A stretch of DNA of 64,000 nucleotides, from assembly GCF_041381155.1 (NCBI RefSeq), contig NC_091138.1:39088417-39152416 (forward strand). Reading direction: 5' to 3'. Of this stretch, positions 17,955-64,000 are shown piece by piece. A program made the translations under genes and the position numbers. The notes below the pieces were generated by a model that had not been told where the DNA came from, searched no databases, and saw only the letters and a list, made by a program, of their open reading frames with translations. This DNA comes from Argopecten irradians (lineage: Eukaryota > Mollusca > Bivalvia > Pectinida > Pectinidae). The stretch's first letter is position 1. Every line of letters starts with the position of its first letter.

Positions 17955-18038
17955 GTAAGTTGGTGGTGTTTGATCCGATTTTGTGATGTTGTTTTCTTTT
18001 GCAAAGACTCGAAATTTTTCATTTTCAATATTGTAGCC

Positions 18039-21000
18039 ATGCTGTCTGAATCCGACATCCAGGGTTTTGTAGCGTTAGACTACGTGGTGTTTGTGTCAAT
18101 CCTCCTGGTATCTATAGGAATAGGCGTATACCAGGCCTGCTGTAAACCTAAACAGGACACCATCAAACAGTATATACTGGCCGACAGGAAGCTCAACATC
18201 CTACCAGTGGCCATGTCAATGACAGTCTCCTTCCAGTCCTCCATCATGTTACTAGGCAACCCAGCAGAGATCTATGTGTATGGGATACCCTTCATGTGGC
18301 AAGCTATTGGACTGGTATTATCTAATCTATTTGCCTTATGCTCCATTGTTCCACTTATCCATCCGCTCAAAATCACCAGTGTGTACGAGGTAAGTACGTT
18401 AGGAGTCCATAAAAGCGACTAAATTTGGGACAATAAAGTTTTTCTTTTTTCCTCAAACCCCTTAGCGTTTCCTTTGGGAGTAAAGCAACGCTCTTTTCTT
18501 TGGCCTTGCCATTTTAGAGTGCATATTGACGACATATTATTGCTTTAAATGTACTGTTTTACAAATGTATTCTTCAGCAAGGTACCTCTGTAATGGTCCG
18601 AGTCAGATCAATTATAACACATTGTGCAGCGATTTTTCCTTTCGGGCAGGTGTTGATTAAACGACAACATTGTATGAGATAAAATTAATACAATCGTTCA
18701 CCTCCTCGGGGGTGAGACAAGGGAATCACAACCCAAGAGGTACTATTCTTAAATTGTCAAACATAGGTTGCCGAGTGTTAAACAGATTCATATAGTCTCA
18801 CCTCAAGGGGCTAAGGGGCAAATGGTGATTTGTCTCTTCAACTGTTCTCGTTGGATGCATTCCTAACAGGAAAGGTGGATATTTCTGTCCAGATTAAGAT
18901 AATATTGTATATAAATTTCATTTTTAGAATCACAATGTTACCCCTCTACGTTTGTTGCAACGATCAATATGTGAGTATTTTAAATTGTTTTGGTTAGAAG
19001 ATTTTATCGTGTCTCTAAGTAATTTCTTTAATCAGTATTTTCAGCTCCGCTTCCAAAGTAAAGCACCTCGGGTAGTAGCAACGAGTATGGGGATTTTGTT
19101 TAATGTAAGTATTGGTGTAAATAAATATTTACATTGTAACATTGTGTATAAGATTTCAATAATTCAAAATTGAATTATTATATAACGTAATGACAAAAAG
19201 AGAATTATTTGATTAAGTAGACTAGATAGTTACAAAGTAACCAATGAGGATTATCTTTTCAGGTTGTGTATATGGGGATCGTCCTGTTTGGACCTGGAAT
19301 CGCAATCGAAGCAGGTTTGTGACAGTTCAGTTATATATACAGCCTAATATTCAAATATTCATAATATGTATTCATAATATGTATTCATTATATACATAAG
19401 TGCAATAATAAATAACTCGAAAGAAGAAGTGTGACAATATGTTACTGTCAAGCGGGCAAACAATATTGCAATGCAAATTGTATGTTAATGATGTATGTTA
19501 ATGATGTATGTTAATGATGTTACAACATATTGTTTTCCGACAGGTTTTGTTGTAACCTTTACAGCTGGAACATCACAATATCATTAATACATATATAATC
19601 ATTATACAGTTTGAATGACGTACAGTATCACACATTAATGAAGACTAACGGTCGTCTTTACGACAACAAAGGTCACGTTCAGATGACCTTTGTATAAGCC
19701 AATAAAATTTCATTTTTCGACAGTAACATGGACATCATCATAAGTATGAAAGACTGTTTCTAATTGGCAGAATATAGGCAATTGTATTGTAATCATTATC
19801 TGATCAAAATTTCTTATCTACCACCATCAAATACTCACTAACCCAGTGTAAAATGAAGATCCATGGTGCACTCAGATTTGGTTTTATGTTGTATAGCATC
19901 TTGTTTTCTTTTCAATAGTAACATATTTTCCAATGTGGGCCTCGGTGTTAGCAGTAGCAATCACGGCCATTATCGGCACGGCAACGGTACGTACAATACG
20001 TTAACTTACTTAACATATTATTTGGTGGTTTATGGTTAGAAGAAAATTAAAAATGTGTTTTATTTGTCTCATGTCAATTTAGTTCATATCACTGCCCTGT
20101 ATGATCGCACAATGTGGCTTATGGGATTAAAAAAACATTAGACTTTTCTTACTTTGACTGCTCTGCAAGTAGGTCGTAATTGTACATACTGTCTCGATTG
20201 CATCATCGTAAAAGGTGACTACATTTATTATCTTTTCTATTTTCCCTAAATGACTTTTTTTGCTAATATAATGTCTCCCTTGACAACGTCTTAAATTTGA
20301 CTATGAATTGAGTGCTCGTCCCTGTGGGGAAGGCTCTGGATTCTGTCCTATGACCGAGACACATCATAGTTAATAAAATTGGTAGCTTCTGCTCCTACTT
20401 AGCGCACAACAAAATGGAGTGGGACGACTGGTTTGTCGTTGTCAGTAGTAACGTTACCGGATGGGATGTGCTGCTATGTATCGTTGGCGGCATGCTTCAG
20501 TGAGATAGCACTGTTAAAATGGCAAGAGTCCTACTATAACAAGGAGACGTAACAGGAATATACCGCAGCATTCCGAAACATACACATATAGCATGCCAAG
20601 CGTTATATCATTTACGAACTGGATATTTACATGCAATGCATATTCCACTATCTCACAAAAGACGTACCTCACACTTCCCACACGCAATACACTACTAGCT
20701 CGGTAGACCGTCTTTAAGCTTGAATGGACCTAGTTGTTAAAAGGACATAAATATTATGAATCGAACATTTATATAGTATAATTTTATTGATATTCAATCA
20801 TTCCAAATATATATATTTTAAATATAATTATTTGTAATTACATTATTTAACTTGATATATGGGACGAATCAAATTATGCAATATGATTAATATTGAACAT
20901 ACAATATTTCAAAATAAACTTTTTTTAGAAACCACTAAAGTCTTAGAATATAAATTCGACATACTAGATAACAAATGGGATATTTACTAACATTAATTAT

Positions 21001-24000
21001 CAAATAGAAATTACTTTTTGATCAGTTAAGTATGTATGTTTTTAATACAAATACTAAAGTATTGAATATAAATACAAATCATACACAATTAAAATAGAAA
21101 TATTAAATATACAATTTGGATAAAATACATCGAGTATTATGACGTGTCAAACGTTGGTATATTATTCGTATTCGTGTTACTTATATTGTATAATCTATGT
21201 TGTCTCCTTCGTGATGCATACAATGATACCATGTGAATGAATAATATGAAATGACGAATATACAACATAAAAATTAATATTAAACGATGGAATATGATTA
21301 GCAAGATACGATATGAATGACAAATATACAATAAGAATACAAGACTATACACCACAAATATCACAAAATGTCAAATTGTACAATATAGCATTCAAAAATA
21401 CAATGATATATAAGAATTTAACAACGTTTGATGCGCCATAAACTATAAATATTCAGTTATTGAGCAATGCAACGTTTGACATCCCATATACTCACATTAC
21501 CACGCGCAATACGTTGTACTTATCTGTTCTTGTAAATATCATAGAATGAAGAGTTGATTATGGTATTTTTGTATCAGCTTTGACTACGAATATGTTCAAA
21601 ATCAGGTGAACTTTAATTCCAAATACAATAACGTTACTGGCATGATATGTAACTAGTACCCTGCTATACGTCAGCATATTGCGGCTGTTGACAGACACTG
21701 TCAAATATTTCTACTCTGATTTTTTATTGCCATGATGATATGCAATGAAACTGGGGTCATTGAGATTTTGCCTACATTAGATTTAGAAATATGATCAAGC
21801 CTTTATCTATTTTGATGTCTTCGTATAACTACCGGGTCCATCATTAAATCCACGGTCGCCGGATGGTCCCTGAAAGCTTCCGATCATAAATGCGCACGCT
21901 AGTATCGATATCCTTCCATCATTATGACTTAGTGATAGCAGCATATGTTATGTATCTCACCTAACTCTGTTTTGCCAATAATCTTTTTCCTATATTAATA
22001 ACATCAACATATAATTCTTTGATTAGCGTGGTCCCCACAAAATGTCCAAACGCTTTAACCTTTTCAGCCGTTGTCATTGTGTAACATACAGAACATTGTG
22101 TAACATACAGAACAACATTGATGGGCTTAGATATAGTTATACAGAAATTTAAACATCTTTGTTCATTACGGTGTGTAACACGTTAAAATGTGCGTAGGAT
22201 GTTGTTTTTAGATAAGTTGGTTGATTTGCTTAACAATTAACAGCTAGATTTATTTAATGACATTCTCCTGTATTCGATGTGTAAAAAACTGTATGTATGG
22301 GGATGGTGTGGTGCTGTGTTTCTTGCAATAGTGCAAACTTGCTTTTTATAGCGTTATCTCACTGAAGCATGCCTCCAAACACACCAAACAAACACATCCC
22401 ACCGGACACATTATACAGACAACATGTAAATATGTCGTCCAACACCCTTATGCCCGGCGAAACAGGAGCAGAAACTATTTATAGACTAAGGTGTCCCTCA
22501 GCCAGGGGAGGGAAATCAGAGCCTTCCTCAGAGGGATGAACGCTCAAATCTAGAACAACAATGAGGCGGTAGGAAGATGAAAGTAAATTAGAAAGAAAGA
22601 AAAGTCTTCCTATCTGTAGAGCTAAAGAGAACTCATGTTATTAAGACAGGTGAATTTTGATATCCTGAATCACTTTGTATTTTGCTGTATAGAAAACGTT
22701 AAAACAGTTCATGCGATATCGATTGCATATGAGAATATATATCAATATTTGCAGTGAGAAAAAATGTATTTTAATATTGTGAATCACTATATATATTTTT
22801 GGAGATATTTTTTCCAGAATATTGCATGAAAACGTCTATATTAAGATGGCAATATAATGGCTATGGAAATGCTCAACCAAATTGAATTAAAGACGCTGTC
22901 CTTTTACATCTGGCAAACTTGTGTTCGCATTTTATTCATACACATTAACCAGAAAACAAATGCAACGCGAAATGATTTGAATTTCCAATTACATGTAGGC
23001 AGATGTGAGAGTTCCTTTAAAAAAAGGAATGTACATGTACGTTGGAATTCTGTTTTACGGAGATATGTGGCATAGATTTGTACCACAGGATATACCATTA
23101 AATTGTTTGGGATGTAAGTATTACTATTTTATTGAAAAATTATAGGAAGATATATCTTGATAATGCAAGATATGAAAATGAATGAGACTTAAGTTTATGT
23201 TTTACAGGGAGGTATGAAGGCGGTCGTGTGGAGTAATGTGTTCCAGTTCCTGGTTGTCTTTGCTGGAATATTCAGTATTATAATACAGGTAAACCTCATC
23301 ATATCTTATATATGTATATAATAATGTATTCAGTGTATTTCTGCTTTAATATCATGTATTTGAAATTAAAGATGCGTTCATGTTAGAAACGTTTTGTTCA
23401 TTCAATACTTCCCTTGTTTTTCATATGTCTATTGTATGCTTAACCATATTCATATATTCATATATATTCATAGATCTCCTGATTACCTTCACCTTGTGTA
23501 ATCAATAAAACAGCTTTATTATATCTACAGAGTACGATAGAGGTGGGAAGTTTTCAGTCAGTGTTTGATATAGCGTATGAAGGAAGGCGCCTACGGTATC
23601 CATTGTACGTATGTTATGTATGTATTATTAAAACGTATGTATTTATTTTACAATTCCCAAATACGAGAATTGTAAAGTAGAGCTTATTAGTTACTAATAC
23701 TTTCATGTGACAATCGGATACATGTGAAAACAGGTTTATTAAAGATGCTCCACCGCCGACAGAGCATAAATGATATTCATCACTCGAACAGTAATTGGTG
23801 TTTAATCGTGTGTGTGTATATATATATATATAAAATTAGCACAAAAAATGTAATAAAATATTTTATTTTGCCTTTGGTGCATAAGCAATAAGTATTTCAT
23901 TCCATATAGGATATAGTGACATGGAATCTTTTTGGGATGCAATTATTTTTTTTTTTATATTTTAACTTTAAAATTAGAAGCTCAAACTTTTCAATGGTGG

Positions 24001-27000
24001 TTATGGTGTAAGTAAGTAACTTTTTTAACCTGAAGAAAAATTACTAAATCGTCTGCTCATGTTTTTGATAGTGAAAAAAAATAACGTTTGTCAATTGTGG
24101 AGCAGTTTAACTTATAATGACACTTTCAGCTCGAGCCCCAACCCAACTGTACGACACTCGTACTGGACACTGATCATAGGGTCGTCTATCTCGCTGGCCT
24201 ACCTCTTACCTACCCAGGCAACCACTCAGAGGATTTGTTCAGTTCCTACACAGAGGGACGCACGAAAGTAAGAACGTATCGCTTGTTTTCCTTACCATAA
24301 TTTTGCTCACGCTCATTGTCTCAAGTTTTAAAAGGTAGGCGCAAGTCAAACTCCAATAGTATGATATCAATGAGGCCATGGTAAAATCCGATCATTCGAG
24401 TACAAGTGATGTGAATTTGGAAATGCGGAATAACAAGGTCTTCGAATAATACGCGTGGTTATTTTAACAAAGTTACTTTCCATGTAGGTAAAACATTTTG
24501 AAATATTTTGGTTCTGTCCTTCCAGAGTGGTAATGGTATCGGCAGTGACGACGGTCGTCAACTTCCTACTCTCCTGCAGTGTGGGGATTTTCGCCTACGC
24601 TTTCTTCTACAAAACCAGATGTGATCCATTGGAGTCCAAAGCTATCGAAAATTCAAACCAGGTAGGCCGACCTAGGAAACTAAACATTCATTTATATCGT
24701 AGGGTAAAGCTTATCGGTTAAGCTGTACGTCCTGTAGATCTCCGTGTATACTTTAGATAGAGTTGTCTTTCCTTACACTCTCCTACACCTCTGTCAAAGG
24801 CTAATGCCAAGTATGGCAAAATTAGTATTAAGAATTTAGTTTCTTGAGGTACTTTAAAGTAATGACGTAATTTTAACACACTAAATATATTGCATATCTA
24901 TTTTGTATTAAACAGTAAAAGTGTCAAATCATTATTTAACACAAAATGCAATTTGGCGATAGTTTTTAAATTTGTATTTTCTCCTTCTTGTTTTCTCTTC
25001 ATGCTCGTCAGATTCTACCCTACCTGGTTGTGGTATTGTTCCGTGATATTCCTGGAATGGCTGGAGTATTTGTCGCCGCTGTCTTCAGTGCTTCCCTCAG
25101 GTAATACACTCGCTCGATACGTTTGATGTGGTGTTATTGTCTACGGGAATGCATGGATTACATTGATCAGACTGGAATCTAAATAAACTGAAAAAAGAAG
25201 ATATATTAAAGTAAATTTGTGAAAGTTAATCTCTGCAAAGTAATATCTAGCTCACCTATATTTGAAGTTATTTTAGTGCACTTTGTGTGATATACATGTA
25301 CGCGAAATTGAATATCTGCGAACTTGTTTTGAAATGGAAATCGCGAAATTATATATCCGCGAAAAAAGTATGTGAACAGTAATTAATTACAGAAACGCAA
25401 ATTGTAAATAAAACACTACATGTATCATACATGCTTTACAGTGTTTAACATGAAATCCATCCTCAGTGAATCAAGTTTATTCATTAATTTATCATTACAG
25501 TGCTATTACGTCACTGTTGAGCAGTCTATCAGCGCAGACAGTAGTGGACATTATCCGACCACTGGTCAAGGATATCAGTGAAGCTAAAGCAACTCTTATA
25601 GCAAAACTTTGCGGTACGTATTTCAATGTGTATTGCATTTCTGCCTAAAACCATAGACTATTTCGTAAGTAAATATCTTTAAAAATACATGGTAATTTCC
25701 TACTTATCATTATCACCCTGATAATCATTGGCAGATTGATATAGTAGCTATTTAAATCATTTAAATAGAGGTTACACAATGATTGGTTGTTGAATATTGA
25801 ATTTGTTCCTCACGAGTGAGTTATTTTTTAAAAGTTACAAAAGACACGAGCTTTAGCGACTGACTTTTTTGAACTTTTGAAAAATAAGTTACAATATGTT
25901 TGTACCACAATCATATTCCTTTTAGCCGATAGAAATACGGCAGGGATATGGTAACGTGTTTTTGACGAAATATGCAAATAAGGTGTAGTAATATTTTTAT
26001 CAGCAGCAAAAAGGCACTAATTAATGTTAAAGAGTAATCGTTAGATAAAGAATCCATCGATATCAAATTCTTCTAATTGGGAACATCTTTGGGATTAAAT
26101 GATACTCATTTAACGTCTTATTGAGTTCAAATCTTCATCGGTGGTTCCAGAGAAAAAACTCAATGTCGGACTAAAGGTATGCATGTAAAAGCATTCGCAA
26201 GACACGACATCGTCAATTTCCCGCCAGATAATCATCAAGCCATATTACCATCCAGATCAAGTTCGTTTCGTACGCGTTAAATCTACGAAACTTTTCAGTA
26301 AAATTCTTGTCCTTCAAGATGTATTATTAGTACTAAAGGTCAATTTTACATGTATGAAAACGTCACGTATTTTGACACAACGACCACGCATAAGCTTTCC
26401 AACAGCAGTTTTGGACGTCAAGCGGCGATCACAACATAAAATGATGTCATTTGACGTAGACAATGATGACGTGACACTAAAAAATAAATAGTTCGGTCAA
26501 AGTTCTTCGTGTCAGTCAATCAGATTGTGTACAGAGTTAATACCACGTGTGGTATGAACAAATTGTTAATCAACTGCTGCAGTGTTTATTCAATGTCCTG
26601 AGAGTTGAATAACACCGCCTGTTTTGGTAGAAATAAAAAAAAATCATTCAAAATAACTACTGCATCAACATCAACAAATAAATATAAACCTACCTTTTCT
26701 TTTTTGGAGTGAAAATCAATAAGATGATAAATGTTTTGACACATGTAAGGATACATCTATCATTTTTTTCAGTACCAGCATATGGAATCATAGGAATAGG
26801 TATTTCATTTGTAATTGCTGAAATAGAAGGCCCGCTGTCAGAGGTATGTACAGATATGAGATTTCATTGGGCAACATGGTCAATTGTGACTGAAACGGAC
26901 ATCACAGCACGAGCATTGTGATGATTCTTCTGTTTCTTTTATTAACTACTATTCTTTCAAACATGGAATTTTAACTTTGAAAAAGAATTTACGTATTTTA

Positions 27001-29846
27001 TGGTTGGATTAATATGAAAAACAAAAGTTTCAAAAAAATTCAAATATTTTCACATTGATATATTTAGTTTTATGTCTTTTTGATAAGATTGTATACTGCT
27101 TGCTGTCCAGTTTTGGTGGAGCTTCAGCTGGAATGTTCTTCTTTGCCGCCTACTGTCCCTGGGCGAACAGTAAGGTATATGGGATATCTCGTAAATTTCA
27201 CACTTAATCTACATTCAAAAAAGTCAAAAGCTGATGTCGGTACCGACATCGTAATGCAAAAAGAAAATCTGGATAATCAAAAGAAGATAAAACGAAAATC
27301 CACTTTGTATTGAACTCTGTCAGAATACACGGGAAAAGAGCCCTGACCAATCAGCTCCTAACTAGTAAGCCTTTTAACAATACCTGTTCAGCAAAACAGT
27401 TTATCAAAATAAGATATACATTTGCTTACCGATAGGTTGCACAGATGATACTCTCAAACATTTTATATCTTTTTACGAAGGGGGTAATTACGGGAGGACT
27501 GACAGGAATGGGACTGGTGATGTGGATTGCCCTCGGACAGAGTTTCTCCCCGACACGCCTCAGAGCACAGACCTTACCTCCAGTCTCCACGGACCAGTGC
27601 TGGGGTCATAACCAGAGTCTTTTGCTAGGCAACGCCACAACTCTCACACAACCAACTACTCCTGTCTTCGTCAGTCGGGAAATAGAACAAAAGTATAGCT
27701 GATAGTGTCCTTGTTGAAGAATTCTTAAAAATATATGTATATACAAAAATATATGTATATTCCCTATGATAAATTTACAAAACAAAAAACGTTTACAATT
27801 ATGTCATGTTAACATGATTACAAACTTTTAACGTTAAAGTATTTGAAATATCAAAAATAAACTTAATTTTCGTACATGTTCAACATCTTTCTGATCATTC
27901 TTCTATTCACATTTTTTTATCGCAGTGAAGGGATAGACATCCTGTACTCAATATCATACTATTGGCTGGTGCCCTTGTGTATGTTGTTCACTATTATTAT
28001 CGGGTCCTTGGTATCCATACTGACAGGTACGTAAAGTGATTATGCACATTAACCCTTTGATATTCCAAAAAGTGGTAGTCTTGTCTTTGAATTAGGACAG
28101 CACAAATGTGTTCTGGTGCGATTGAGTTAAACTTGGCATCACTAATTATATAAACTTCCATATCGAGTGTAGTTGTTTTTAAAATTAATTTCTTCCTACA
28201 TTTTGGTCAATTTTTATTTTGATTGAATGTTAAAGTTATAAGTTCTAAAGAATTGGGTGAGAGCCATTCTGAACAAGGACAAGCACTTTGTTTTAATGAT
28301 TAACTTAATAAAATAGGGTGGGTGTTTTTATTATAAAATCGTTTTCTTTTCCGTGTTAACCAACCAGGACGACCGGACCCTGCCGATGTGGATGTCCGTT
28401 ACATACTGCCTTTCTTTGACCACTGTTTTCCATGCCTCCCTCGGACAGTACGAACACGTCTGTATGGCGGGGTCAAATTTCACGAGGTTAGTAACTTAAC
28501 CATTACATGACAAGATCATTTGATTTATTGTCCTATATCACGATTACAACGAATTGATGATTATCAACTATGGACCTTTGTTGGGGTCCATATGGTGCTA
28601 TCCCGTCTGTGCATATTACAGAGTTAGCTCCCTTGCGGGTAGGTATCGATTGTAACGTCATTATTTCGTGAGCGCAATTCACGTCGTTTTCTCCGAAACG
28701 TATGACGTTGCGCTACCAAACACATGACATCACAATCAATACCTACCCACAAGTGCAGATAATCTGTAATATGCAAATTCGGAATACGAGTTGAGATGAG
28801 AGGTTTATCGTACCGTCAGTATAATTGGTTTCCGGGTACGACGGAGTGTTATACCGCCCTGGTAAAATTTAATATGACCGAGGGTGTAGTCTGAGGTTAT
28901 TAACACCTTATGCTCCTTAATTTCTGTATTAGATGTTTAGTCTACTTGACAAATGTTAAAGGTATTATCTGATATGCACGTTAATTACTGGAAAAAACGT
29001 CTAGAGAACTCAACGTGGGGCAATGAAGTTAAAAAAAAGAATATTGACTCGGTTTTCCTTAAAATGGAAACACCGAGTCTTCATGTATATATGCTATATA
29101 TCAAACTCCAAATGTATCAGCCACGGAGAATAGTGAATAGCATATCTAAAACATGTCTAATTTTAGATGATAATAGATTAATTTTCTGATTGCACCAAAA
29201 GTTTAAATACTTTGTTGTACACGGTATGATATATTTTCAAATATTCAGCATCATTTTATTTAAAATTGTGTATATTTGATTTATGATATAACTAAAAGTG
29301 TCTTTGCAGTCAGCTGACGGTGCCTGCTTTTTGACCCAATCTGTAGAGTCTCTTATTCTTAGTAAGGTCACTCTTGATTCTTAGTAGGGTCACTCGACAG
29401 GTACACGTATTTTTCCTGTTTTTCTGCAATTAAATATAAATGTATTTTTCTGTTTCCGACAGAGAAAAACCTGGCTGAAGAGTTTGGAACTAAAGCAAGT
29501 TGAAAATGAAGGGTACACCGTTAATACAACATTAAGCTCAATACCGGGACAAGACAATTGTAACTCAAATACTCATACTAATAAAAGCCACCAAAACCGA
29601 AATTCTGAGAATATACGGAAACGACAATCGGAGTCAAATCGACCCACTTCATTGATAGGGGAACACCCCGGTGGTGGTTCGTCTTCTACACACGTGTCGG
29701 CTCGGGACAATACCAGTGATGTTGACGACACTAGACAAGTTGAAATTTTAATGGATAAAACACTTAAGCAAGCAAATAGAGATTTAGTACATAGCCGAAA
29801 TGCGGACTCCGGAGAACACCAAAATACTTACTCGACTTATCTGTAG
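18039..29846 (+). CDS. SLC5-family sodium/solute symporter (SMCT/SMVT type), copy 1
   Basis: Sixteen exons join in frame: 18039-18389, 19036-19104, 19263-19314, 19919-19986, 23208-23288, 23531-23604, 24130-24267, 24526-24661, 25012-25100, 25501-25613, 26773-26843, 27088-27174, 27481-27692, 27926-28026, 28368-28486 and 29463-29846, for 714 residues. Every junction keeps phase with GT-AG borders. SLC5 marks are ADRKLNILPVAMSMTVSFQS, the GNPAEIYVYG motif of the monocarboxylate/multivitamin/iodide branch, GGMKAVVWSNVFQ, and the DIPGMAGVFVAAVFSASLS helix followed by VVDIIRP. The expected role is Na+-driven uptake of small organic anions such as lactate, short-chain fatty acids or vitamins across the plasma membrane; the substrate cannot be read from sequence. 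The extracellular loop in exon 13 has two N-glycosylation sequons (NQS, NAT). The hydrophilic tail of about 128 residues is longer than I expect for vertebrate members and ends STYL, a possible PDZ ligand. About four residues expected between exons 4 and 5 (T | GGMKAV) are missing, suggesting a microexon in the 3.2-kb intron 4. Confidence 0.88.
18390..19035 (+). other. Intron 1 of SLC5 copy 1
   Basis: The intron begins GTAAGT right after TAYGAG-type codons and ends TTTAATCAG. Near its start, GTCCATAAAAGCGACTAAAT resembles the head region of the dispersed SINE-like family (ATCGTAAAAGGCGACTAAAT). A small fragment may therefore be present. Otherwise I see nothing in it. Confidence 0.6.
19481..19519 (+). 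repeat. 13-bp minisatellite, three copies
   Basis: TATGTTAATGATG is repeated three times head to tail in intron 3. The matching place in unit 2 (about 42637-42649) has a single copy, so the array expanded in unit 1 or contracted in unit 2 after duplication. Confidence 0.9.
20162..20754 (+). mobile_element. SINE-like dispersed repeat, near full length
   Basis: The head TGCAAGTAGGTCGTAATTGT and ATCGTAAAAGGTGACTAC match the reverse complement of the end of the element at 34432-34956. The body keeps GAAGGCTCTGGATTCTGTCC, TGGTAGCTTCTGCTCCTACT and GGCATGCTTCAGTGAGATAG. The tail ends near AGTTGTTAAAAGGACATAAA. It sits in intron 4 of SLC5 copy 1 and predates the duplication, since unit 2 has it at 43346-43945. 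No internal Pol III box was found. Confidence 0.7.
20755..21440. other. AT-rich degenerate repeat stretch in intron 4
   Basis: A very AT-rich part of the intron with loosely recurring words such as GAATATGAAATGACGAATATACAA and GATATGAATGACAAATATACAA split by a few tens of bases. This hints at a decayed minisatellite with no clear period. The minus-strand frame 21137-21364 is a by-product of the composition. Confidence 0.4.
22300..22620 (-). mobile_element. SINE-like dispersed repeat, 5' part
   Basis: Blocks in the order GGTGTGGTGCTGTGTTTCTT, ATAGCGTTATCTCACTGAAG, AACAGGAGCAGAAACTATTT, CAGCCAGGGGAGGGAAATCA and GAGGCGGTAGGAAGATGAAA are the family's body read in the opposite direction to the copy at 20162. 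The (CAAA)n tail region is missing. Two copies in opposite orientation within one intron could let the transcript fold. A counterpart lies at about 45440-45760. Confidence 0.68.
25285..25380. repeat. GCGAAATT-type short repeat in intron 9
   Basis: Recurring words CGCGAAATTGAAT, TGCGAACTTG, ATCGCGAAATTATAT and CCGCGAAAAAAG occur within 100 bases. They resemble a short dispersed family with similar GCGAA words that also appears around 7800-7990 in the receptor intron. The ends are not defined. Unit 2 has the same stretch near 48440-48540. Confidence 0.4.
26440..26476. promoter_or_regulatory. Cluster of CRE-like TGACGT motifs in intron 10
   Basis: Three TGATGTCA/TGACGTAG/TGACGTGA words fall within 37 bases, and a near-palindromic E-box context TACCACGTGTGGTA lies downstream at about 26551. 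These are binding-site shapes for bZIP and bHLH factors. In unit 2 the cluster has an added GATTATTGATGACGTA-type segment near 49580. Whether it is an enhancer or chance is open. Confidence 0.25.
28611..28774. mobile_element. Inverted-repeat MITE (copy B, 164 bp)
   Basis: The left end GCATATTACAGAGTTAGC and right end, as reverse complement GCATATTACAGATTATCTGC, start inverted repeats of about 43 bases that run through GGGTAGGTAT[CT]GATTGT on both sides. The centre contains CGTGAGCGCAATTCACG. It lies in intron 15 of SLC5 copy 1, with the homologous insertion at 51745-51908 in copy 2, so it predates the duplication. Confidence 0.85.
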
Positions 29847-29904
29847 TTATTGTGATTTCTCATTCTGTTATGTATAGTGATTTTGAAGTATGCACCAATA
29901 CTTG

Positions 29905-29910
29905 AATAAA
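29905..29910 (+). terminator. Poly(A) signal of SLC5 copy 1
   Basis: AATAAA lies 59 bases after the stop codon of the last exon, giving a short 3' UTR. The same signal is kept at 52934-52939 in copy 2. No stronger signal is seen before the tandem repeat that begins near 30130. Confidence 0.6.
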
Positions 29911-30129
29911 CGTTCATGCATGACATAATCAATGCATATACAACAATGGCGTAGGAAGATGAAACGTCATGGGGGGGGGCAATGGTCCTAAATATTTCGT
30001 AACCCCCCGTCCTCCCCCTCACGCGCACTGCACCCAAAGGAGATACTTAATATAATATTAATATATATATCATTACACATATTCCTTGTACACATCTATA
30101 GTCAGTGGCACAGCTAGCAGGATATCAAT

Positions 30130-51744: not shown

Positions 51745-51908
51745 GCATATTACAGAGTTAGCTCCCTTGCGGGTAGGTATCGATTGTAACGTCATTATTT
51801 CGTGAGCGCAATTCACGTCATTTTCTCCGAAACGTATGACGTTATGCTACCAATTACATGACGTCACAATCAATACCTACCCACAAGTGCAGATAATCTG
51901 TAATATGC
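51745..51908. mobile_element. Inverted-repeat MITE (copy C, 164 bp)
   Basis: The duplicate of the 28611 element in intron 15, with the same length and the same GCATATTACAGA ends. Differences from copy B lie mainly in the centre, around TGACGTTATGCTACCAATTA. Confidence 0.83.
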
Positions 51909-52933: not shown

Positions 52934-52939
52934 AATAAA
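52934..52939 (+). terminator. Poly(A) signal of SLC5 copy 2
   Basis: AATAAA lies 59 bases after the stop codon, the same spacing as in copy 1, so the 3' end of copy 2 is undamaged. Confidence 0.55.
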
Positions 52940-53095
52940 CGTTCATGCATGACATTATCAATGTATATACAACAATAGCGTAGGAAGTTGAAAGGTAATG
53001 GGGGGGGGGGGAGGGGGCAATGGTCCTAAATATTTCGTAACCCCCCCCGTCCTCCCCCTCACGCGCACTGCACCCAAAGGAGATACTTAATATAA

Positions 53096-53098
<3 letters not shown>

Positions 53099-53126
<28 letters not shown>

Positions 53127-53128
53127 CA
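53099..53128. repeat. (AT)n microsatellite, expanded in unit 2
   Basis: A run of about 15 AT units; the matching site in unit 1 (about 30060-30071) has about half as many. It lies just before the tandem repeat. Confidence 0.85.
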
Positions 53129-53214
53129 TTACACATAATCCTTGTACACATCTATAGTCAGTGGCACAGCTAGCAGGATATCAATAAATACGCAAATTAG
53201 CGTGCGAGTTTGGG

Positions 53215-53725
53215 GGGTCCAGGGGTATCCCCTGGAAAATGACTGTGATGACCACAACGATGCATTTTGTTGATTTTGCGATAGACGAAGGGGGTGGGGG
53301 GATGGGGTCCGGGTATCTCCACCGGGAAAAAAATACGATTTAGAATGGCTGAGATGAGTTTTGCGATGCATTTGGTTGAATTTGCGAACACCGAAGGCGC
53401 GAGATTTTGTGATTGAGAGGGGGGTAGGTCCGGGGATCTCCCTGGGAACATTTTTTATGATTTAGAATGGCTGAGATGAGTTTTACGATGTATTGTGATG
53501 AATTTGCAAGCACCAAAGGCGTGAGATTTTGTTGTTTTGGGGGTCCTGGGGTCTCCTCCGGGAAAAACTTTTGGAAACGATTTGGAATTGCTGAGATGAA
53601 TTTTACGATGTATTTTGATGAATTTGCGAGCGCCGAAAGCGCGTGATTTTGTTGTTTGCTGAGAAAAAATATTACGTTTTGGAATGACTGAGACGAGTTT
53701 TATAATGTATTTTGATGATTTTCAA
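53215..53725 (-). repeat. Degenerate tandem repeat of unit 2, one unit fewer
   Basis: Same family as 30130-30800 with starts near 53337, 53459, 53579 and about 53675, and a rearranged first unit. The unit with GAGCGCCGAAGGTGAGAG present in unit 1 is absent. A spacing of 122 rather than 123 breaks the long minus-strand frame seen in unit 1, which supports that frame being non-coding. Confidence 0.8.
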
Positions 53726-54084
53726 GCGTTCTTAACACGGTAAATTTTTCGATCTAAAGTTAATTGCATTTAGAAATGATAATTGTGAGTGTCGTCATAC
53801 CATTATGCAACCCAAGTCGATCTGAACATACCGGATTCACACCATCGGCACATTGTTGTGTAACTTAAAATAAAAATGATTTGAATGTCTTGCTAAGACA
53901 TATGAACAAATTAATCATTTAAGAAGCATTTTTGAAATAGTATAATCCCTTGATGGACATTTTTAGTCTAGTTTGTGTGTATTGAATTATCATTACTAAA
54001 GGTTTGAACATTATGTGTTTGAACGTTTTAGGAAACCCGTCGCGCAGCGGAAAATTTTCAAAAATGAAGTACAAAAATGTGCAG

Positions 54085-54195
54085 GAGCACCCTTTTTTTC
54101 TTTTAAATGTGCATTTTTAGAACATTTCACTCGGCGAAAACGGGATTCAACACTCCCCACATCCTGGAGAACGGGGCATTAACATATCTTACTTG
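54085..54195. other. About 105-bp segment present only in unit 2
   Basis: Between GTGCAGGAG and TTACTTGA, unit 2 carries an added stretch including CACTCGGCGAAAACGGGATT; unit 1 (near 31158) joins the two flanks directly. The G+C content is higher than around it. No inverted ends or clear target duplication are seen, so it may equally be a deletion in unit 1. Confidence 0.55.
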
Positions 54196-55272
54196 ATGTT
54201 AACACAACTGTTTAAATTGTTACAGCCACTTTGTATTTACTTGTTCAGTGACACATTTACAATAAATTATATTGCTACATTCCATTAAATGAGTGTTAAA
54301 ACAATGATTATACCAGTATAGTTTAAGATGATGATGATGAAGATTAAGTGCTGTTTGCATATTTTTTCCTAGTAACTGAATAGTATCCTAAAACTATAAT
54401 ATGTTCACATGATATCATTACTCCAGACTGACTTTTTACGACCTCTCTTTCAATGTATTGATAGTTATCTATTTTAATCCCGGTTGGTTTTGTTTACCGT
54501 ACAAACATTCTATCAACAGCTAGTGTCATTTCAGGACGGTCTCTCTTGTGCGAAATATGTTGCGGTGTGAATATGTTATTATGATAGGGGGCTACGGTAT
54601 ATAAGTGCCGCCTCTTCCTGTGATAGTGAAATGGTGGTTGAAATAACGATAAAAATGAGCTTAATCTATACCACCACCCGTTTTCTTCTTTTTGTAAAAT
54701 CATATTCATTTTCTGCTACTTCGTTTATAACAGTCATCACAATCTCTAAAGCTACGAGTCATTGGTTACTGAAACCTAGGGATTCAAGATGTAACTTTTA
54801 ATCTTTTGATATTCTCCATGCAATTCGCACGGTTATCCACTTGTTGAGCATCAACGGAATTATGGGTATTATTTGATGAAGATATTTCCAACATATCCCG
54901 TCTCATAGTTGATTGCCCACTTTATACTGTACATATGGATATATTGGTCTGTAGATGTTGTCGCTTGGTCAGCTTTCAAACTTTCTGATAATCTTTACGA
55001 TGCAAATCTGAAGTCATTTAATTCCCACGTTCAAATAGACAGTTTTTGAGTAAGGAAAGTTAAATAAGCAAAGATCTCGATGTGGCAAAATCCATCTTTA
55101 TATTTAAACATCACAAACGCAATGAATCCGACAATGCTGAAATCGATTATTGCCTATCATTTTATCGCAATACATTACACGGGATCAACCGCTGATTGTA
55201 TTGGTTTTATATCCCCACTCTTTATTTTTGTTTGGAATAAATGGAAGAAGGGGTTTATTTATGACTAAACTT

Positions 55273-55690
55273 ACGTCCTATTAACATCCAGGGTCATTTA
55301 AAGGGTGACTACCCTTGTGTACGGTGTGTTGCGTGTGAGAAGTTCTTGGTGCGTGTTTTGGGAGACTGTGGTATATTCGTGTTGTGGTTTCTTGTATAGT
55401 GGAATTCTTGCCCAAAAGTGCTATATCACCGAAGACACTAAGCAAAACACCCCAACCGGCCACATTATACCGAAAACTGGCGAACCAGTCGTCCCACTCC
55501 CTGTATGCTGAGCGCTAACAAGCAAGAGCAGAAACTACCACTTTTATAGACTTTGGCTTGTCTCAACTAGACGACAGATCCCAAATCCTTCCTCACAGGG
55601 GCGATTAAGGCGATCAGTGAGGTGGTGGCAAGGGAGACTTTAGGTAAGGGTCCCGAATCCCAGTCTCTCAAAATACGCACTTCGCATGGT
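55273..55690 (-). mobile_element. SINE-like repeat, unit 2 copy of the 32235 element
   Basis: The same landmark order as its unit 1 counterpart, starting TTACGTCCTATTAACATCCA, with some internal loss (GCCC directly before AAAAGTGCTATATCACCGAA). The frames 55281-55463 and 55305-55511 are by-products. Confidence 0.65.
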
Positions 55691-56119
55691 AGGCCGTGCT
55701 TGCATGACACTGGTTGTTATATACATGTTATACTACATCACATGGATTATATTGTATCTATATCGAAAAATAGGGCAAGTCGAATAAGTTACAAACGCTT
55801 CTTTACAGCATTATTATTTTCACTGAAAACTTTGAGTTTGAGCTTCCTATTTTACTTCAGTAATAAGAATATCAAAACTAATTAATTGCTTCCCGAAAGA
55901 AACTCCATGCCATTAGGCCCTATGTGGAATAAAACACTGATTACGCATGCACCAAAAACAAAACAAATTATATATACATATATTGTGTTAATCAGACACA
56001 CATATACATGATTAAACATCAGTTATTGTATCATCCAATATCATTTATGATATCATAAATGATAAAATGTATCATTTATGCTCTTTCGGCCGTGGAGCAT
56101 CTTTAATTTGTCGTAAAGA

Positions 56120-56480
56120 TAATACACCAAACCAAACGAAGAAACTACCACTTTTATATACTATTGCGTGTCTCAGCCAGGGGACATAATCAAGAGCCTA
56201 CGTCACAGAGGCAACTGCTCAACCGAAGGTCAAAGTTGCGACACACCAGTCATTCCATTCTCTGAATGCTGGGCATTAGGCAGGAGGAGAAAACACTATA
56301 TTTATATACATAGTACTACAGTGTCACTCAGAGCCTTTCTAACAGGACGAATGTTCAATTTGAGGCAGAAAGATAGGCGGCATCAAATTATTAAGAAAAA
56401 AATTAAAAATATCCCAGATTTAGTCGCCGTTAACGATCATGTAATTGCGGTGGGTACGTTTTCTTACAACTTACCTGGAC
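56120..56480 (-). mobile_element. SINE-like repeat, unit 2 copy of the 33065 element
   Basis: Head part with CGTGTCTCAGCCAGGGGACA, CTCAGAGCCTTTCTAACAGG and TTAGTCGCCGTTAACGATCA. Upstream, near 56040, an added TATCATTTATGATATCATAA palindrome-like stretch is not in unit 1. Confidence 0.62.
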
Positions 56481-56798
56481 ATAGAATAAATAAAATACAA
56501 TAAAAATTTTATAAAAACGTGATTGTGTGCTATGAATGATTATCACTTGAAATATAACCTGTTCAAGTCATTGTACTTAGTGTTTATGGTAAAAACAAAT
56601 GTACAATATTTAAGATCACCTTAAACTAATTATTTAGTTTCAGTTTTTTGGTTTGTATTTTATATGAACAACATGAATGAAAAAACAATAAGCCAAAAAG
56701 GCGTATAATGGGTTTTTGTTGATAATTGCGTTTTCCAAATACAAATTCTCAAATCGATTAAGTATCAGTCGGTAAGAATGTGCAAGCTGTCGTTATAT

Positions 56799-56849
56799 GG
56801 CCCTGGATGTTCATAGGGCGTTTATATAGTCAAACAAACAAACAAACAC
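56799..56849 (+). mobile_element. SINE-like repeat tail with (CAAA)n, unit 2
   Basis: GGCCCTGGATGTTCATAGGG, CGTTTATATAGT and then CAAA units, matching 33719-33770. Confidence 0.65.
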
Positions 56850-57489
56850 AACAAATGTCCGTAACCATTGCTTGGCCAATCGGAACCATTGATATACATT
56901 TTGTGGCGAAGGGAGAGTGAGCTTACTCTTAACCTTAACTTGGAAAGCGTTTCATTGGATGAGACTCATTCCGATATACGTGTAAGGATATCTGGATACG
57001 AACATCGTCATACAGGGAGTAGTACTATTTAAAGATCAATAACCCTCAGGTAAAGTTACTTTCAAACAAAATTATGATAGTATTAAAATACAGTACAATT
57101 CCCATTTATCATTGTACTTTAACAGAACATTTTAATCTAAAATATTTTGCATCTTTTACTAATCAGTTGTGTGCCTATTTTGCTGTTCTGCTGCTTAATT
57201 TCAACAATTAAGGAAATTGAAAAACGAAAAAAAAAATCATTATCTTTTATCGTTATTCTTGCACGTCGTTTTTTACCATTTAAAATTTTGTAATTCAATT
57301 TACTGACTAATTTTATATATAGTAATTTTAAATGAAAAAAACGAAACCAACATCACTACTGCATTATCGAGGTAATATTTCACCGAGGAATTCCGGATGG
57401 TCACGAGAGTTTCTTTAAAGTTCTGAAACTTGACGCTCTGTTTTTTATGACTCTGTAGTTTCCTCACTTTAATCAACATTCTGGTATCT

Positions 57490-58060
57490 TACTACCTAGT
57501 AATTAAGAATGATAATTTAAAGACAGTACAATCCGATAAGCGACGGTCTCAGCAAGCGACTTATCATTGAGCTGGCAATGTCTAAGAAATTATGTCTTAT
57601 GTAAAAAGGCGAGAAAAACTATGTCTTTACATATTTATTTTTCTTTTTTTATTGCTATGTATGTTCCTATATCATAATGCATCCTCACGTAGATATGTCC
57701 ATATTTCGCAGATGCAATGTCGGGTCAAATTCGCTGGGAATATTTTGCGGTACAATTTAATTCGTGATTTTATGAAAATTAGTGCCAATTTGAATCCTAC
57801 TTTTTTGCATTTAAAAGTAACCATTATGTTTTCGTAATATTTTCAATTGTGCAAAGTTTAGAAAATTTTGTCAAATGTTAGAGGTGATAACATTATGACG
57901 ATACTTTAACCATGTCTGTAGTCTGTAGCAGCGACGGGGGATACCAGGGGGTTCCATTTAACGGTAAGTTCACAAGAGGACCGTTTTGTATAATTTTTGA
58001 CCCCCGTTATTTTTGCAACTGACAGATGTTGACAGACAGCGCTCGAGCTAATGCAAATGT
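57490..58060. other. Unit 2 region with the empty SINE site and added segments
   Basis: One AATTAAGAATGAT near 57502 marks the site that is filled in unit 1. Two added stretches follow relative to unit 1: about 57720-57870, with CGGGTCAAATTCGCTGGGAA, and about 57985-58055, with TGACAGATGTTGACAGACAG. The 57592-57837 frame lies mostly in the first and has no motif. Confidence 0.5.
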
Positions 58061-59137
58061 CATCCTATTTTTTCGTCGTTTTTCAAGTGTACTATTACGA
58101 AACTAAATATTACAGAGAGCGAGTTAACCATGAAAAAGCCAATTAGTGGGATATATAAATTTTTTGAAAATACATTTTTGAACGAGACCATACAATACAC
58201 TTTACATAGGTAATGAGCGAAGCGAGCTCACGCGCTCCATTTAGATGCCACCTAAAGGGGTATTCTCTACTTATGTGATACTTTTGTAGTTTTTTGTGAT
58301 GTACAAATACGTGTTTGAAGGCCTCGGAATGGAGTATATAGTTCCATTAAAGAGGTACGTTTTTTTATTTTAGAAAGTAGAACATGTTTTATTGGGATGA
58401 ATATTGTAAAACATATGAAGATATAAATTTAATCTGAAATTTCCCCGCGATGTCGTGACAGATTTACTCGCTTATAATCCGGGTACGTACGGGCACATAG
58501 GCTATTTTTAGACAAACACATTTACGTGTTCTGTTTATATATATCTTGTATATGTATTTTTTGTCAAAACTGCATATTTGAACAAAATTAAGCAAAGATG
58601 AATTCATAAGTAGTATAATGTTTAGTGTGTAGAAAATTCATAAAAATATAATAAACTTTATGTGAAGAGGGACAACACATTCATTGCAAATTTACAATTT
58701 CGCTTTGATTCCTGAGGATCAAAATGTGTGTTGAATTAATGTAACAACTTTGTGATAATTATTTACTCGTAGATCTTCCTAATGGCTTTAACGTTTTGAA
58801 ATATGTCGCTGATCTGAGTAGAAACGTAAACAGAGTGACAATGAAATTTAGCCGCTATTCAGTCAAACAATGACGGCATGACGTCAGGGATTTGGTATTT
58901 CATGCGCTTCTTGACAGATTTATAGATAGAAATGTTCATACAATTTTACAAATTAATAAACTAAAGTTTTCTTTAAATCAAAACTGTGCCAGCCCATACA
59001 GATGATGCATTGTAACTTTGTCGCCTTGTAGGAGTGACCATCGGATGTAATCATCTTAAGTAAATCCTGTCAATAACCAAATAAGAAACAGCTATCAAAA
59101 TGAAGCTTATGGAGTTTTAATCAGAAAATCACGGTAT

Positions 59138-59618
59138 AAAGGCCCCATTTACCTTTCCGGGAGCAAATATAAAAGTTTTCTTAAAAAACATTAATAAACA
59201 TCAGTAGAAAAATGCGTACCGAATGACCTAAAATAAGGTAACGACACCAAACATATGGCAAGATCTTTCCTGCGTAATATATGAAACAGGGAGAGTCAAT
59301 TCGCTGTTTTTGGCGTCTGGCGCAGTGATATGTCATTGCTACCGCCCCGGTAATTTCGAGGACGGACGACGGTCTTTTGGAAACATAATACGACCCGCGT
59401 TAATGAAAATAAACATTTTATTTTATTTTAATGTCTATGTAACTGACATAACCGTTCGTCCGGTACAAGTGATGATAACTCTGATAGTAGTATTAGCCCA
59501 TTAACGACGAAAGTTTATAATAATTTTTGTGATCACTACCAAAATTATCGATCTTGTTTTTACATTCCGCAATTTTAAAAATTTTAAAACCGTTTCGGAA
59601 AGGTTTAGTTGGGCCTTT
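59138..59618. mobile_element. MITE present only in unit 2, about 480 bp
   Basis: The left end AAAGGCCCCATTTACCTTTC and the right end, in reverse complement AAAGGCCCAACTAAACCTTT, form imperfect terminal repeats of about 25 bases ending in CCG. Unit 1 (near 36363) has TATTTAAGAG at the empty site, so the target looks like TTAA or TTTAA. The + strand frame 59310-59504 inside has no transposase motif. It inserted after the duplication, or it differs between haplotypes. Confidence 0.75.
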
Positions 59619-61518
59619 AAAGTGGCAGAAATCCATCTTTCTGTGTGATGTTTAATTAGATTCTTGTATCCTACATTCTCGAATGTTTAAATGGTTTCTC
59701 AATGCAAATTTATAAAAACAAGTCTGTGATATTTGACATCTAAAAAGTAATCACGTCATAAAACGTTAGCTTTTGATTTTAAATAATAAATATATATTTC
59801 AATTAATCTCGAAACTTTAATCCTTGCTTGTCGAAAAGATAGTCATTCTAGAATGCAATAGGCTGCTATTATTTCTTTAGAGTTTACTCAGGCGATTTAA
59901 TACATTTCGTAAATGTCATTTTTAAAATGGAGGATTTAAAAGGGTTTTTTTATTTGACTTCATCCTACAAAAAAAAATTGTCGATATTGTAATATTATGA
60001 ATGGCACAGAAATCAATATGCAAGGTGGGTGGTTATATAGCTATATAAAAATCGGTGTCGCAAAATTGTCATAAACCGTTTTGCAATTTCATAGAAAAAA
60101 GAATTAATTGGTCACTAAAAATTTACGGGCCCGTGGTATAGGGTTAAACACATCTTTTATAATATTATAATAATATCTAGTCATTAGTGACGACGCAATT
60201 TCGATAGTATGTCCATTCACATAGTGATTGCGCAATTCGAAAGTGATTGAATAACTCTCACATAACTATAATTGGAACTTCGTGTAACTTATAATGAACC
60301 TTCGGTAAAAGCTAATCAATTTCGCGAAATGTATTCAGACATATGATTATTTAATGTTGGATTAATACATGTAACTGTCAAATGAACTTGGAGCAAATAC
60401 AAAAAATAATCATTAATCCGCTTTATTACACTAGTCGCCTGAACAGAAAATAGATTAAAATAAGTAAACATATATGCCTTTGTGATATTTCGGTTAAAGA
60501 AGGCGGCTATATACAAAAACTGCTCGTACATTGGTACTCAATATCACATACATTTCAGAGATGGTTGTTTTGAGAAAATTGACGAGCGTACGTAACTGGA
60601 TAGATACAACAAACGAAAAAGAGAACATAAACTTTCAATTTAACACCAATCTTCGAACATAAAGTTCTAAAATGCCCATTTAGGTAGGTAGGTAACTGGG
60701 TCCACAGGAAAACTGAATGATGAAAACTAATTCATAATATGCACATCACGTGTTCGTCAATTATGTATAGACAGGTAGTGATTTTCACCGAATAATTATT
60801 ATTTCGTTTCCAGTATGAAAAGAAAGCATTTAATAGAAATATAAAACATTAACAATTGTCAATGCCCTTTATACCATAATACGTAGGTTCCAAATTGACA
60901 GAAATACATCAATGTAGTCCCTGATATTTACAAAAGTGAACACAAAGATCTTATTGGCGTGTCTTCTCTGACGTCCCGAGGGCATTTTATTGAGATAGTA
61001 AAAATGACATATATAATTAATATAATGACACAATCAAATGTGTAATGTAAAACATGAAAATTCATCCACGAATAGAAAACGAAAAGGAAGCAATGGAAAT
61101 GACACATTTCAATAAATCCACCCTTTCGCAGAAGGGCTCTAACACCATTTTCTATATCTAATGTCACTCTCACATAATTATCGGGTATTCATGCAATTTG
61201 AATGAAAAGGGCAATAAGGATTTGATATGTATATATGCTTTTGTAAAATCGAATCCTGTCAAAACCAGCGCTGCTGCGTTACAGTGTTGCAAATATTTGG
61301 TGATGATGAGAAAACATGAACTGAACCCTGACTAACGATCTCATGCAAATTGTTAGTGCCATCTCATTTTCACCAGAACTTCACCATACAACACAACTAC
61401 GTAGGTCAACAATTGACGTATCTAAGGTTAGTCACGGATGCATACAGATACCTTTTAGTAATTATGTTTAAGTACGAGCCTAAGGAAGTGATATATATAG
61501 GCATACCATACAAATAAT

Positions 61519-61735
61519 CACTAGTTTAAACAGGGTCTGAAACTTTAAATCATCAACGCATTAGATTCAGCTATCCGTATCAGTAGTCAAAATAAACTCT
61601 TAATGAGATTGATAATAATAATGAGCGTATATACTGAACGGAAGTTGAAATGGAAAATACATTATGTGAAAATGGGTGTTGAAATTGTTGAAACATTGAT
61701 AGATCTTAAGGTTTAAGAGCTCCAGTGTTTTAATA
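61519..61735. repeat. Degraded copy of the foldback palindrome
   Basis: It still starts CACTAGTTTAAACAGGGTCT and has TGAACGGAAGTTGAA and CTTAAGGTTTAAG later, but the inner arms no longer pair and the closing ACTAGT is gone. Compare the intact hairpin at 38167-38346. Confidence 0.6.
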
Positions 61736-62359
61736 CTCATTGGCTTTCTGATAGAAAAAAAAAATATCAAGCGAATAAATCTCCCTATAGTTGTGGTGCT
61801 ACGTTGCGTTGTGTCTTCATGCGTGGATCTGAGATGAACGAGCCCATTGAATAGTAGCCACTTTGGTATTGTACACATACGAGAGACTAACGTTTATGAA
61901 AAAACCTGTAAGTAAAAATTTGATTAATTCCGCATATGGCTCCTTGAATCATTGTTGGACGAGCAACAAATAAGGCTATTTCTGAGATATCCATCGATGG
62001 AGAGTTGATGTATATCGCAAACTATGGTGTGACACCTAGCTGGGTATACGTTAGAATCGAAAACAACCCAGATCAACTTCAAAAATGGACTAGAATTATC
62101 AAACACATATATGAAAGCGCATCATTTGCTTGATGTATATGTTGCCGTTTATGTTGCATGTAATCAGTTTCAGCAAAAAGATCAATTACTTTGTGAAAAT
62201 AAGTAAACTGTGTACAAACCATGGACTGACCTTTATATGTCTCGTTAGGTGAAAGATCAGTTTAGATATTCGTTGAATATGAATATAAATAATAGGAATT
62301 GTACCAAACTTTGGCTTTTACCTCTATACCTCATTTTGTGTCTCATAATTACATTGTGC

Positions 62360-64000
62360 TTAAAGGAGTTTGTGTCTCGATGTTCATAAAATGTATCAGT
62401 GATGCTATGTCACTTGATGCTGGGGAGAAATGAGCTTTATTAGCACGATGTAAGAAAACCTCTCCGTGTGCCGCGCGCGGGACGAGGGAATAACCTGTAA
62501 GCCGTCAATTAATCGAGAGTCAAAAAATATTTTCTGACACACCGATTAATGCATATTTTCTGAGCTCAAAACCGTGATGACGTCCCATAATAGTCCGTGG
62601 CTTATAGTGCTATACATCAACGGGTTACAGGAAAAGACGATTAACGATTTTTAATGAATACTTTTGAATGAAGTTAATCGTACAAATAACTTTGGACTCG
62701 AATGTAAATAACTAAAAGAGTGAAAATTCGACTGTTTCAAATACTCTACTTAATGCTCTAATACAGGTATCTGTCGTGTAATTATGAAAGAAAAATCCGA
62801 CACAGAAATTAAAATTTCGGATTTTTTTTTTGTAGAGGAGTTCAGCAACGAATTAGCTTTAAGTTTAGATAATATTTTCCTGTAGTTTTTGATGCATTGT
62901 GAATTGCAAAGTTTGTGAGACTGTAAAATTGAAATGTTACGTAACAAGTAAAAATGTATCCTTTATTAAAGCATCGATGATATGGATGCTTGACTTCCGT
63001 CCAACACCACCCTTGGACCAACCGATGATTGATCATTACAAACATTGTGTTGTGTGTTGCTAACGAATACATTAGAGATCATTTACTTACAATTCTGTAA
63101 TATGTTTCAATGTGTGGTAGAAAGAATTTGTTATTGATGTTATAAAAGATCAGATATATTGAAATTAAGCCAAACTTTTAACTATTTTTTTTAGACAGTG
63201 CGGTCCGCTTTCCAATTTTTAAATCAGATAATACGAATTAGATACACAGAAAAAAGATATAAAATTAGCCATGCCTTTGGTTTGGAAGGTTATGTAATAC
63301 CTGGACCAAGATGTTGTTTACGTGTACACAAACGCCCATTCAGCGAACACACCTGTAATTATCGGGTATTTGGTAATGGCTCTTACTGTCAATCAGGTTA
63401 GGACATCCGTTTAGAGGATTGTGATTTGAAATATGCGAAAACCCCGTACATTCTATGACTCTAGGTTTTATATTGACCGACCATCCAATCTAAGAACTGA
63501 AGAAGTAAAAGAAAATGGAAATAAAAATATCACTGATCATAACCTAGGAATAGTATAATACGTGATATATATAGTGTCGTTACACCAGGTTAAAACAATA
63601 ATGAAGTGAGACTTATTAAAAAACAAAATTGTTCTGAAGAACTATTTTCAAGTAATGATGTAACCTTAAAAATTAATTACCAGTCCAAGTGCTGGTAATA
63701 ACGGAATCATTAGTAAGAATTCTAAGCATGTAATTTTCACCGTTTCGTAATCTACATGAACATTTTGTATTAGTTCATACAAGAAGGGCTACAGCATTGA
63801 CCACACTAAATTTATCTTATTTGAATATCACAGAAGTATGATCATCTATCACACATATTAAATATCTCGATCGGTATGATATACAAAAAAGATCACACAT
63901 GGACTAGGCTATTTTAAGGATATATTTAGCATAATTTTGAAATAAATGATTTTTTTATATAAAAAAGAAAACTACATATATACTGTAATTTCAATAGAAA
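62360..64000. mobile_element. TTAA-flanked element of unit 2, right end outside window
   Basis: TTAAAGGAGTTTGTG at 62360 aligns with the left end of the unit 1 element at 38804, and the interior follows that copy with many small insertions. The two minus-strand frames here (62750-62947, 62842-63072) are split relatives of the unit 1 frames and break at different points, so neither is coding. Confidence 0.6.

Follow-up and report, generated by a model that had tools for sequence, protein, structure and literature searches.

A tandem copy of an SLC5-type transporter gene in Argopecten irradians, probably made through a shared first exon, beside a probably misplaced second haplotype

A stretch of 64,000 nucleotides from contig NC_091138.1 of the Argopecten irradians assembly GCF_041381155.1 (positions 39,088,417 to 39,152,416, forward strand; hereafter the window) carries two consecutive copies, units A and B, of a segment containing a gene of the SLC5 transporter family, and raises the question of whether the second copy belongs to the scallop or to its assembly. 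An earlier note on this DNA had left the matter as an undecided choice between a young copy-number gain and two haplotypes joined end to end by the assembler. The present analysis splits that choice into two claims, a tandem copy within the window that is probably real and an extra copy beyond it, unit C, that is probably false. The account favoured as a whole, to which we assign a probability of roughly 0.65 from the assembled sequence, is that B was made via the first coding exon shared with a neighbouring paralogue, gene D, and lies beside a falsely placed other haplotype. Coordinates past 64000 are given in the window frame, extended into the assembly 3' of the window, and whole-assembly queries covered 845.8 Mb in 1508 contigs. 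Contigs C1-C16, with the window on C5, are of chromosome size (34.5-75.5 Mb, against 1.07 Mb for C17), which fits n = 16 in Argopecten. A striated-muscle myosin segment of 100 amino acids from the genome was identical, as aligned, to PDB chains 1dfk, 1dfl and 1b7t of Argopecten irradians and scored equally with 1kk7 and 1qvi, while 2ec6 and 2os8, from another scallop, scored lower; Argopecten irradians is on this evidence the probable species.

Comparison of the window with itself yielded a single long direct repeat (18035-29029 against 41201-52162, 95.0% over 11,122 columns) that goes on piecewise up to 40309/63994. Unit B was colinear with unit A and joined directly to it without a gap, and counterparts were present for all 16 coding exons, confirming the tandem second copy described previously. 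The boundaries, placed by the earlier note at 18037 and 41203, were found to be shifted by two bases, to 18035 and 41201, with aligned identity just outside them falling to 0.38-0.42. The claim that the whole unit is repeated together with about 11 kb of downstream sequence held for colinearity but not for completeness, as B stops at 64000, about 890 bp before the unit end, and a run of 10 N begins at 64001. An AATAAA/ATTAAA motif stands 3' of the gene in both A and B, in agreement with the poly(A) signal reported for each. Gene models were predicted from exon-sized conserved blocks between unit A and the downstream region holding paralogue D, and the features are as follows.

9528..18034, + strand: upstream flank of unit A, recurring once after the N gap (64034-72734) and not before unit B
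18035..41200, + strand: duplication unit A, 23,166 bp
18039..29846, + strand: gene A, predicted sodium:solute symporter (SSF/SLC5), 16 coding exons, 714 amino acids, intact frame
18039-18389, 19036-19104, 19263-19314, 19919-19986, 23208-23288, 23531-23604, 24130-24267, 24526-24661, + strand: gene A exons 1-8
25012-25100, 25501-25613, 26773-26843, 27088-27174, 27481-27692, 27926-28026, 28368-28486, 29463-29846, + strand: gene A exons 9-16
29847..41200, + strand: about 11 kb 3' of gene A, the last part of which is the sequence standing upstream of D in the other contig
41201..64000, + strand: duplication unit B, ended by the assembly gap starting at 64001
41205..52875, + strand: gene B, 16 exon counterparts to A, frame broken as assembled
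41222..41471, + strand: interval within exon 1 of B in which D-type sequence switches to A-type, from site-by-site comparison with A and D
95805-103395: gene D, predicted complete paralogue, 16 exons, 613 amino acids

The start of gene B proved to be of mixed origin. The 400 bp upstream of B match those of D at 395 of 399 positions and those of A at 222 of 366, and the first 150 bases of its intron 1 match A at 135 of 143 positions and D at 65 of 145. In exon 1 of B, coding positions 4, 18 and 192 carry the D state; positions 76 and 87 carry the A state, as do the sites from 267 onward at which A and D differ. Positions 111, 117 and 141 match neither A nor D, and there is a deletion at 288. 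On this site-by-site comparison gene B is a hybrid, D-type in its upstream region and start and A in its body from inside exon 1 onward. Exon 1 is also where A and D are alike: it is 92.9% identical overall, contains an identical run of 104 bases and shows just 5 differences over its first 266 bases, with identity in the adjacent sequence tested at 0.50-0.61, and the 5' edge of this exon-1 homology coincides with the edge of the unit. No N, no small-indel excess and no error patch was found at 41200/41201, and the flank does not recur between A and B. Because the junction is free of a gap or error patch, no flank intervenes, three distinct units exist and the join lies in about 350 bp of homology, a real copy is the better supported interpretation of the A|B junction, which is probably, though not certainly, present in the animal.

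The following course of events would account for the hybrid. Gene A and its neighbour D, an older paralogue likewise of SLC5 type, would have been alike in their first coding exon, their introns and upstream sequences having diverged past alignment, dispersed repeats aside. Unequal recombination in an ancestor would then have joined exon 1 of D on a first chromatid to exon 1 of A on a second, placing a second A body behind the upstream region of D and giving the order A - B - D, with B the hybrid. The unit edge at 18035/41201 would thus mark the 5' edge of the homologous exon, the breakpoint itself lying within 41222-41471. Separately, the assembler would have kept the other haplotype (second flank, unit C and D) as a contig of its own, and scaffolding would have set this contig straight after the first with a 10-N gap. 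It is very improbable that A|B is real but came from a replication-based or end-joining event whose breakpoints met the exon edge by chance; many tandem duplications need no long homology, but here the unit edge is the edge of the A/D exon homology, and exon 1 of B changes type inside that homology. A likeness can be drawn to the non-syntenic regions of Acropora, where (PMC12314368) tandem duplication by non-allelic homologous recombination is likewise associated with tandem copies in a clustered family, with homology at the junction and with haplotypes of differing structure, the last of these being presumed for the scallop. The scallop locus differs in that the homologous stretch is a single coding exon, about 350 bp long, between genes whose introns and flanks have diverged, so that in the A/D pair a conserved exon, not a repeat, would supply the homology at the duplication junction.

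Further comparison of A with D revealed that their similarity varies strongly from exon to exon. Exon 5 was the most alike at 98.8% identity, followed by exons 1, 8 and 15 (92-93%), exons 3, 10, 12, 13 and 16 (79-90%), and exons 2, 4, 6, 7, 9, 11 and 14 (69-78%). Synonymous divergence was lowest in exon 5 (0.06) and rose to about 1.7 in exons 4, 7 and 9, exon 14 being saturated. Unevenness across exons 1-15 was pronounced (chi-square 101, 14 degrees of freedom, p 3e-15), also when synonymous changes only were considered (chi-square 84, p 6e-12), and extended into exon 1 itself, where synonymous divergence was 0.12 over codons 1-95 and 1.4 over codons 96-117. In the 60 bp beside each of the six exons tested (1, 5, 8, 12, 13 and 15) identity was 0.48-0.72, and the introns of D could not be aligned with those of A except in dispersed repeats. 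We interpret this pattern as gene conversion whose tracts are about the size of an exon, a process that would also preserve exon 1 as a substrate for unequal recombination. If both this conversion and the exchange through exon 1 are genuine, single exons would keep neighbouring paralogues able to recombine, and gene B would have acquired another gene's upstream region, that of D, and be driven by it.

Beyond the window, the 10 N at 64001-64010 form the sole N run in 264 kb around it, and a further 30 kb scanned downstream contained none. The gap is followed by the second flank (64034-72734, corresponding to 9528-18034), unit C (72735-95800) and then D, an order that is contiguous within the second contig. 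There, end-of-unit sequence meets exon 1 of D at 95800/95801, and the sequence preceding B is seen in its normal place before D. In the whole assembly, a 1-kb query from the unit returned three strong matches, the remaining 43 of 46 being a repeat at 72-84%; a 1.5-kb query from the flank (11000-12500) returned two long matches, the remaining three of five being shorter than 75 bases; and a 1.8-kb query from D returned one full-length match, the remaining 13 of 14 being exon-sized or smaller.

Judged by the gap, the insertion-type errors at both contig ends and the low divergence of the clean flank, the repeat after 64001 probably represents the other haplotype, set behind the first. At the start of the second contig, small insertions outnumbered deletions relative to the window flank (22:1, 32:1 and 21:2), while the clean part of the flank (14.2-17.7 kb) had a ratio of 4:1 and mismatches of 0.63% over 3,489 bases, and insertion-type errors were present at both contig ends bordering the gap. 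A distinctly improbable alternative is that no part of this order is an artefact: flank and unit would have been carried together by another tandem segmental duplication, its period about 54.5 kb, and all of A, B, C and D would lie on the chromosome. The contiguity of second flank, C and D and the 2.7-8.3% by which A and C differ within the unit agree with it, but the junction that it requires falls exactly in the N gap, the errors at both contig ends and the low divergence of the clean flank speak against it, and C has the large-indel states of B at A 29.0-35.3 kb. Marks of false duplication named in PMC9516828 are half depth, a gap between the copies, discordant pairs and one-copy k-mers. 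With the heterotype false duplications treated there, the repeat after 64001 shares a scaffold gap and allele-level divergence of the clean flank, whereas A|B differs in having no gap between its copies, and the previous suggestion of haplotypes joined end to end accordingly suits the former better than the latter; that study used depth, k-mers and discordant pairs, while the scallop case was judged from the assembly alone. A count of transporters in this assembly that ignores the gap would probably contain at least one gene too many.

Elsewhere in the assembly, part of the unplaced 65-kb contig C269 (43000-49000) was found to be colinear with C13 (18314000-18320000) over 5.9 kb at 98.3%. On this alignment C269 is likely a retained haplotig, a single example and not the product of a survey.

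Divergence between A and B was not uniform along the unit, mismatches by position in A being 2.5% at 18-28 kb, 3.1% at 28-32 kb, 8.3% at 32-34.4 kb and 7.8-26% at 36.4-40.3 kb. In three bins of the last of these stretches, 1-2 bp insertions in B outnumbered deletions by 44:5, 18:0 and 46:4, and against C the B sequence at 59.6-63.9 kb had 105 small insertions to 4; given this strong 1-2 bp insertion excess, part of the 3' divergence of B is sequence error. An older 3' part of B was tried as the cause of the rising divergence and set aside, the insertion-type errors beyond about 59.6 kb explaining part of the rise only. The 8% A/B mismatch at A 32.0-34.4 kb and the 6.6% A/C mismatch at 35.3-38.2 kb are probably real, since these stretches lack an insertion excess. 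Those A/B values that come without an insertion excess (2.5%, 3.1% and 8.3%) exceed all yardsticks at hand, namely the clean flank, C against B (1.17% at 50.1-55.0 kb) and C269 against C13. Two features belong here.

34432..34970, + strand: 539-bp insertion in A, absent from B and C
59600..64000, + strand: low-quality contig end in B, with a 1-2 bp insertion excess against both A and C

Large insertions and single sites both grouped the three units in more than one way. Insertions of 107, 112 and 539 bp were found only in A, of 147 and 339 bp only in B, and of 82, 116 and 69 bp only in C, while B and C had in common insertions of about 100, 149 and 64 bp that A lacks; the six large indels setting A against B and C all lie at A 29.0-35.3 kb. 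Extra sequence was also present only in C near A 26.5 kb and only in B near A 36.4 kb. Insertions of both sorts, shared and unshared, are present among A, B and C, a qualification of the earlier note. At the 683 three-way sites counted over A 20.0-26.3 and 26.9-34.4 kb, neighbouring sites tended strongly to be of one type (436 adjacent like pairs, compared with 249 +/- 12 over 2000 shuffles). The pair most often in agreement was A and C at 20-22 kb, for the most part A and B at 22-27 kb (balanced at 23 kb), and B and C from 28 kb. By this comparison the three copies are mosaics. Coding dS was 0.028 for A/B and likewise 0.028 for A/C, and divergence for this reason gives no age; with the copies mosaic as well, the description of the gain as young was not borne out.

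Unit C was also considered as a plain allele of A, an option dropped in view of the 2.7-8.3% mismatches and the large indels common to B and C. Being A-like in its 5' part and B-like further on, C is either a real hybrid unit or an assembler collapse of two units. The resemblance of C to A in the 5' flank and to B from about A 28 to 36 kb is what would be predicted for a second haplotype that carries a single hybrid unit or in which two units were collapsed. A tentative extension, which falls short of even odds, is a copy-number polymorphism within one scallop, with A and the hybrid B on one chromosome and a single recombinant C (A 5', B 3') on the other; the locus is known from one unphased assembly, and we therefore infer this polymorphism.

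Several points weigh against the favoured account. Three mutually different units imply, in its favour, that at least one haplotype has two of them, if one animal was sequenced; this argument fails if several animals were pooled. A/C mismatches within the unit were 3.2% at 19.9-26.3 kb, 2.7% at 27-32 kb, 8.3% at 32-34.4 kb and 6.6% at 35.3-38.2 kb, whereas the clean flank shows 0.63% and the 3' end of the unit 0.97%, from which it follows that C is not simply the allele of A; allelic divergence inside the unit could equal that between A and B. Over the final 334 bp of the flank (294 aligned bases) divergence reaches 7.5%, and small insertions outnumber deletions by 33 to 2 in the opening 1.4 kb of C; the link between second flank and C may therefore be weak. 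In exon 1 of B, the A-type sites 76 and 87 precede the D-type site 192, disfavouring a single clean crossover, and conversion or allelic variation must consequently be added. The junction at 95800/95801 was considered as a second sighting of A|B and rejected, as it leads into D, and the second contig hence provides none. Finally, a misjoin at exon 1 would yield an identical chimeric sequence, and the frameshifts in B could mean a badly assembled copy.

These last points bear on the possibility that the A|B repeat was itself falsely created from haplotypes, with B another allele of A that the assembler joined on at the exon-1 homology. Such a misjoin would produce a chimeric exon 1 of this kind, the A/B and A/C coding dS values are equal, the assembly seems to retain haplotigs and has a gap-bounded repeat next door, and B carries three one-base frameshifts. 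The junction is nevertheless free of a gap or small-indel excess, no copy of the flank separates A from B, three different units exist, and the roughly 350 bp shared at the join would be short for a long-read misjoin, the read type being assumed, such that this alternative appears unlikely. We retain as preferred the tandem copy made via exon 1, beside a falsely placed haplotype; the recombination event, the haplotype reading and the existence of B in the animal are all matters that we infer. No paper on this assembly or locus was among the literature matches listed, and tandem copying via exon 1 and false haplotype repeats are both known kinds of event.

AG/GT splice sites were present at every internal exon edge of the 16 exons of A and their counterparts in B. 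In gene B as assembled, exons 1, 8 and 13 each contain a one-base indel and exon 16 an insertion of 3 bases; in the gene of unit C, insertions break the frame in exons 1 and 10, and exon 2 holds a further insertion of 3 bases. In both genes the frame breaks may be real or sequence error.

The ~11 kb downstream and the introns also contain several repeats. A tandem array that repeats about every 114-123 bp lies 3' of each gene, at 30152-30734 in A (about 5 copies) and at 53335-53652 in B (2.6 copies). A dispersed repeat of about 420 bp is present in unit A in both orientations (20146-20585 and 34530-34965), with at least 43 more matches elsewhere in the assembly at 72-84%, and an inverted 195-bp match (85%) links 8731-8925, upstream of the unit, with 28596-28789 in intron 15 of gene A.

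The identification of the gene as an SLC5 transporter was upheld by the predicted protein. PF00474 matched the gene A product with an E-value of 3e-38 over residues 45-452 (profile 1-406 of 406), and D also at full length, and the best solved relatives of the gene A protein were SMCT1 (7sl9, 3.2e-92), SMVT (1.1e-86) and NIS (2.3e-78), which we take to be SLC5A8, SLC5A6 and SLC5A5, respectively. On these matches gene A is a member of the SLC5/SSF group. It resembles the SMCT1/SMVT/NIS branch in carrying PF00474 over its whole length, sodium-coupled transport being predicted for the scallop gene, and differs in being part of a large expansion in its genome. Among 65 matches listed (62 of 276 candidates having been scored), at least 39 exon-1-like ones lay outside the locus, on C3, C5, C7, C8, C11, C13, C14 and C269, several of them in tandem clusters, and two of the 39 sit on the likely haplotig C269.

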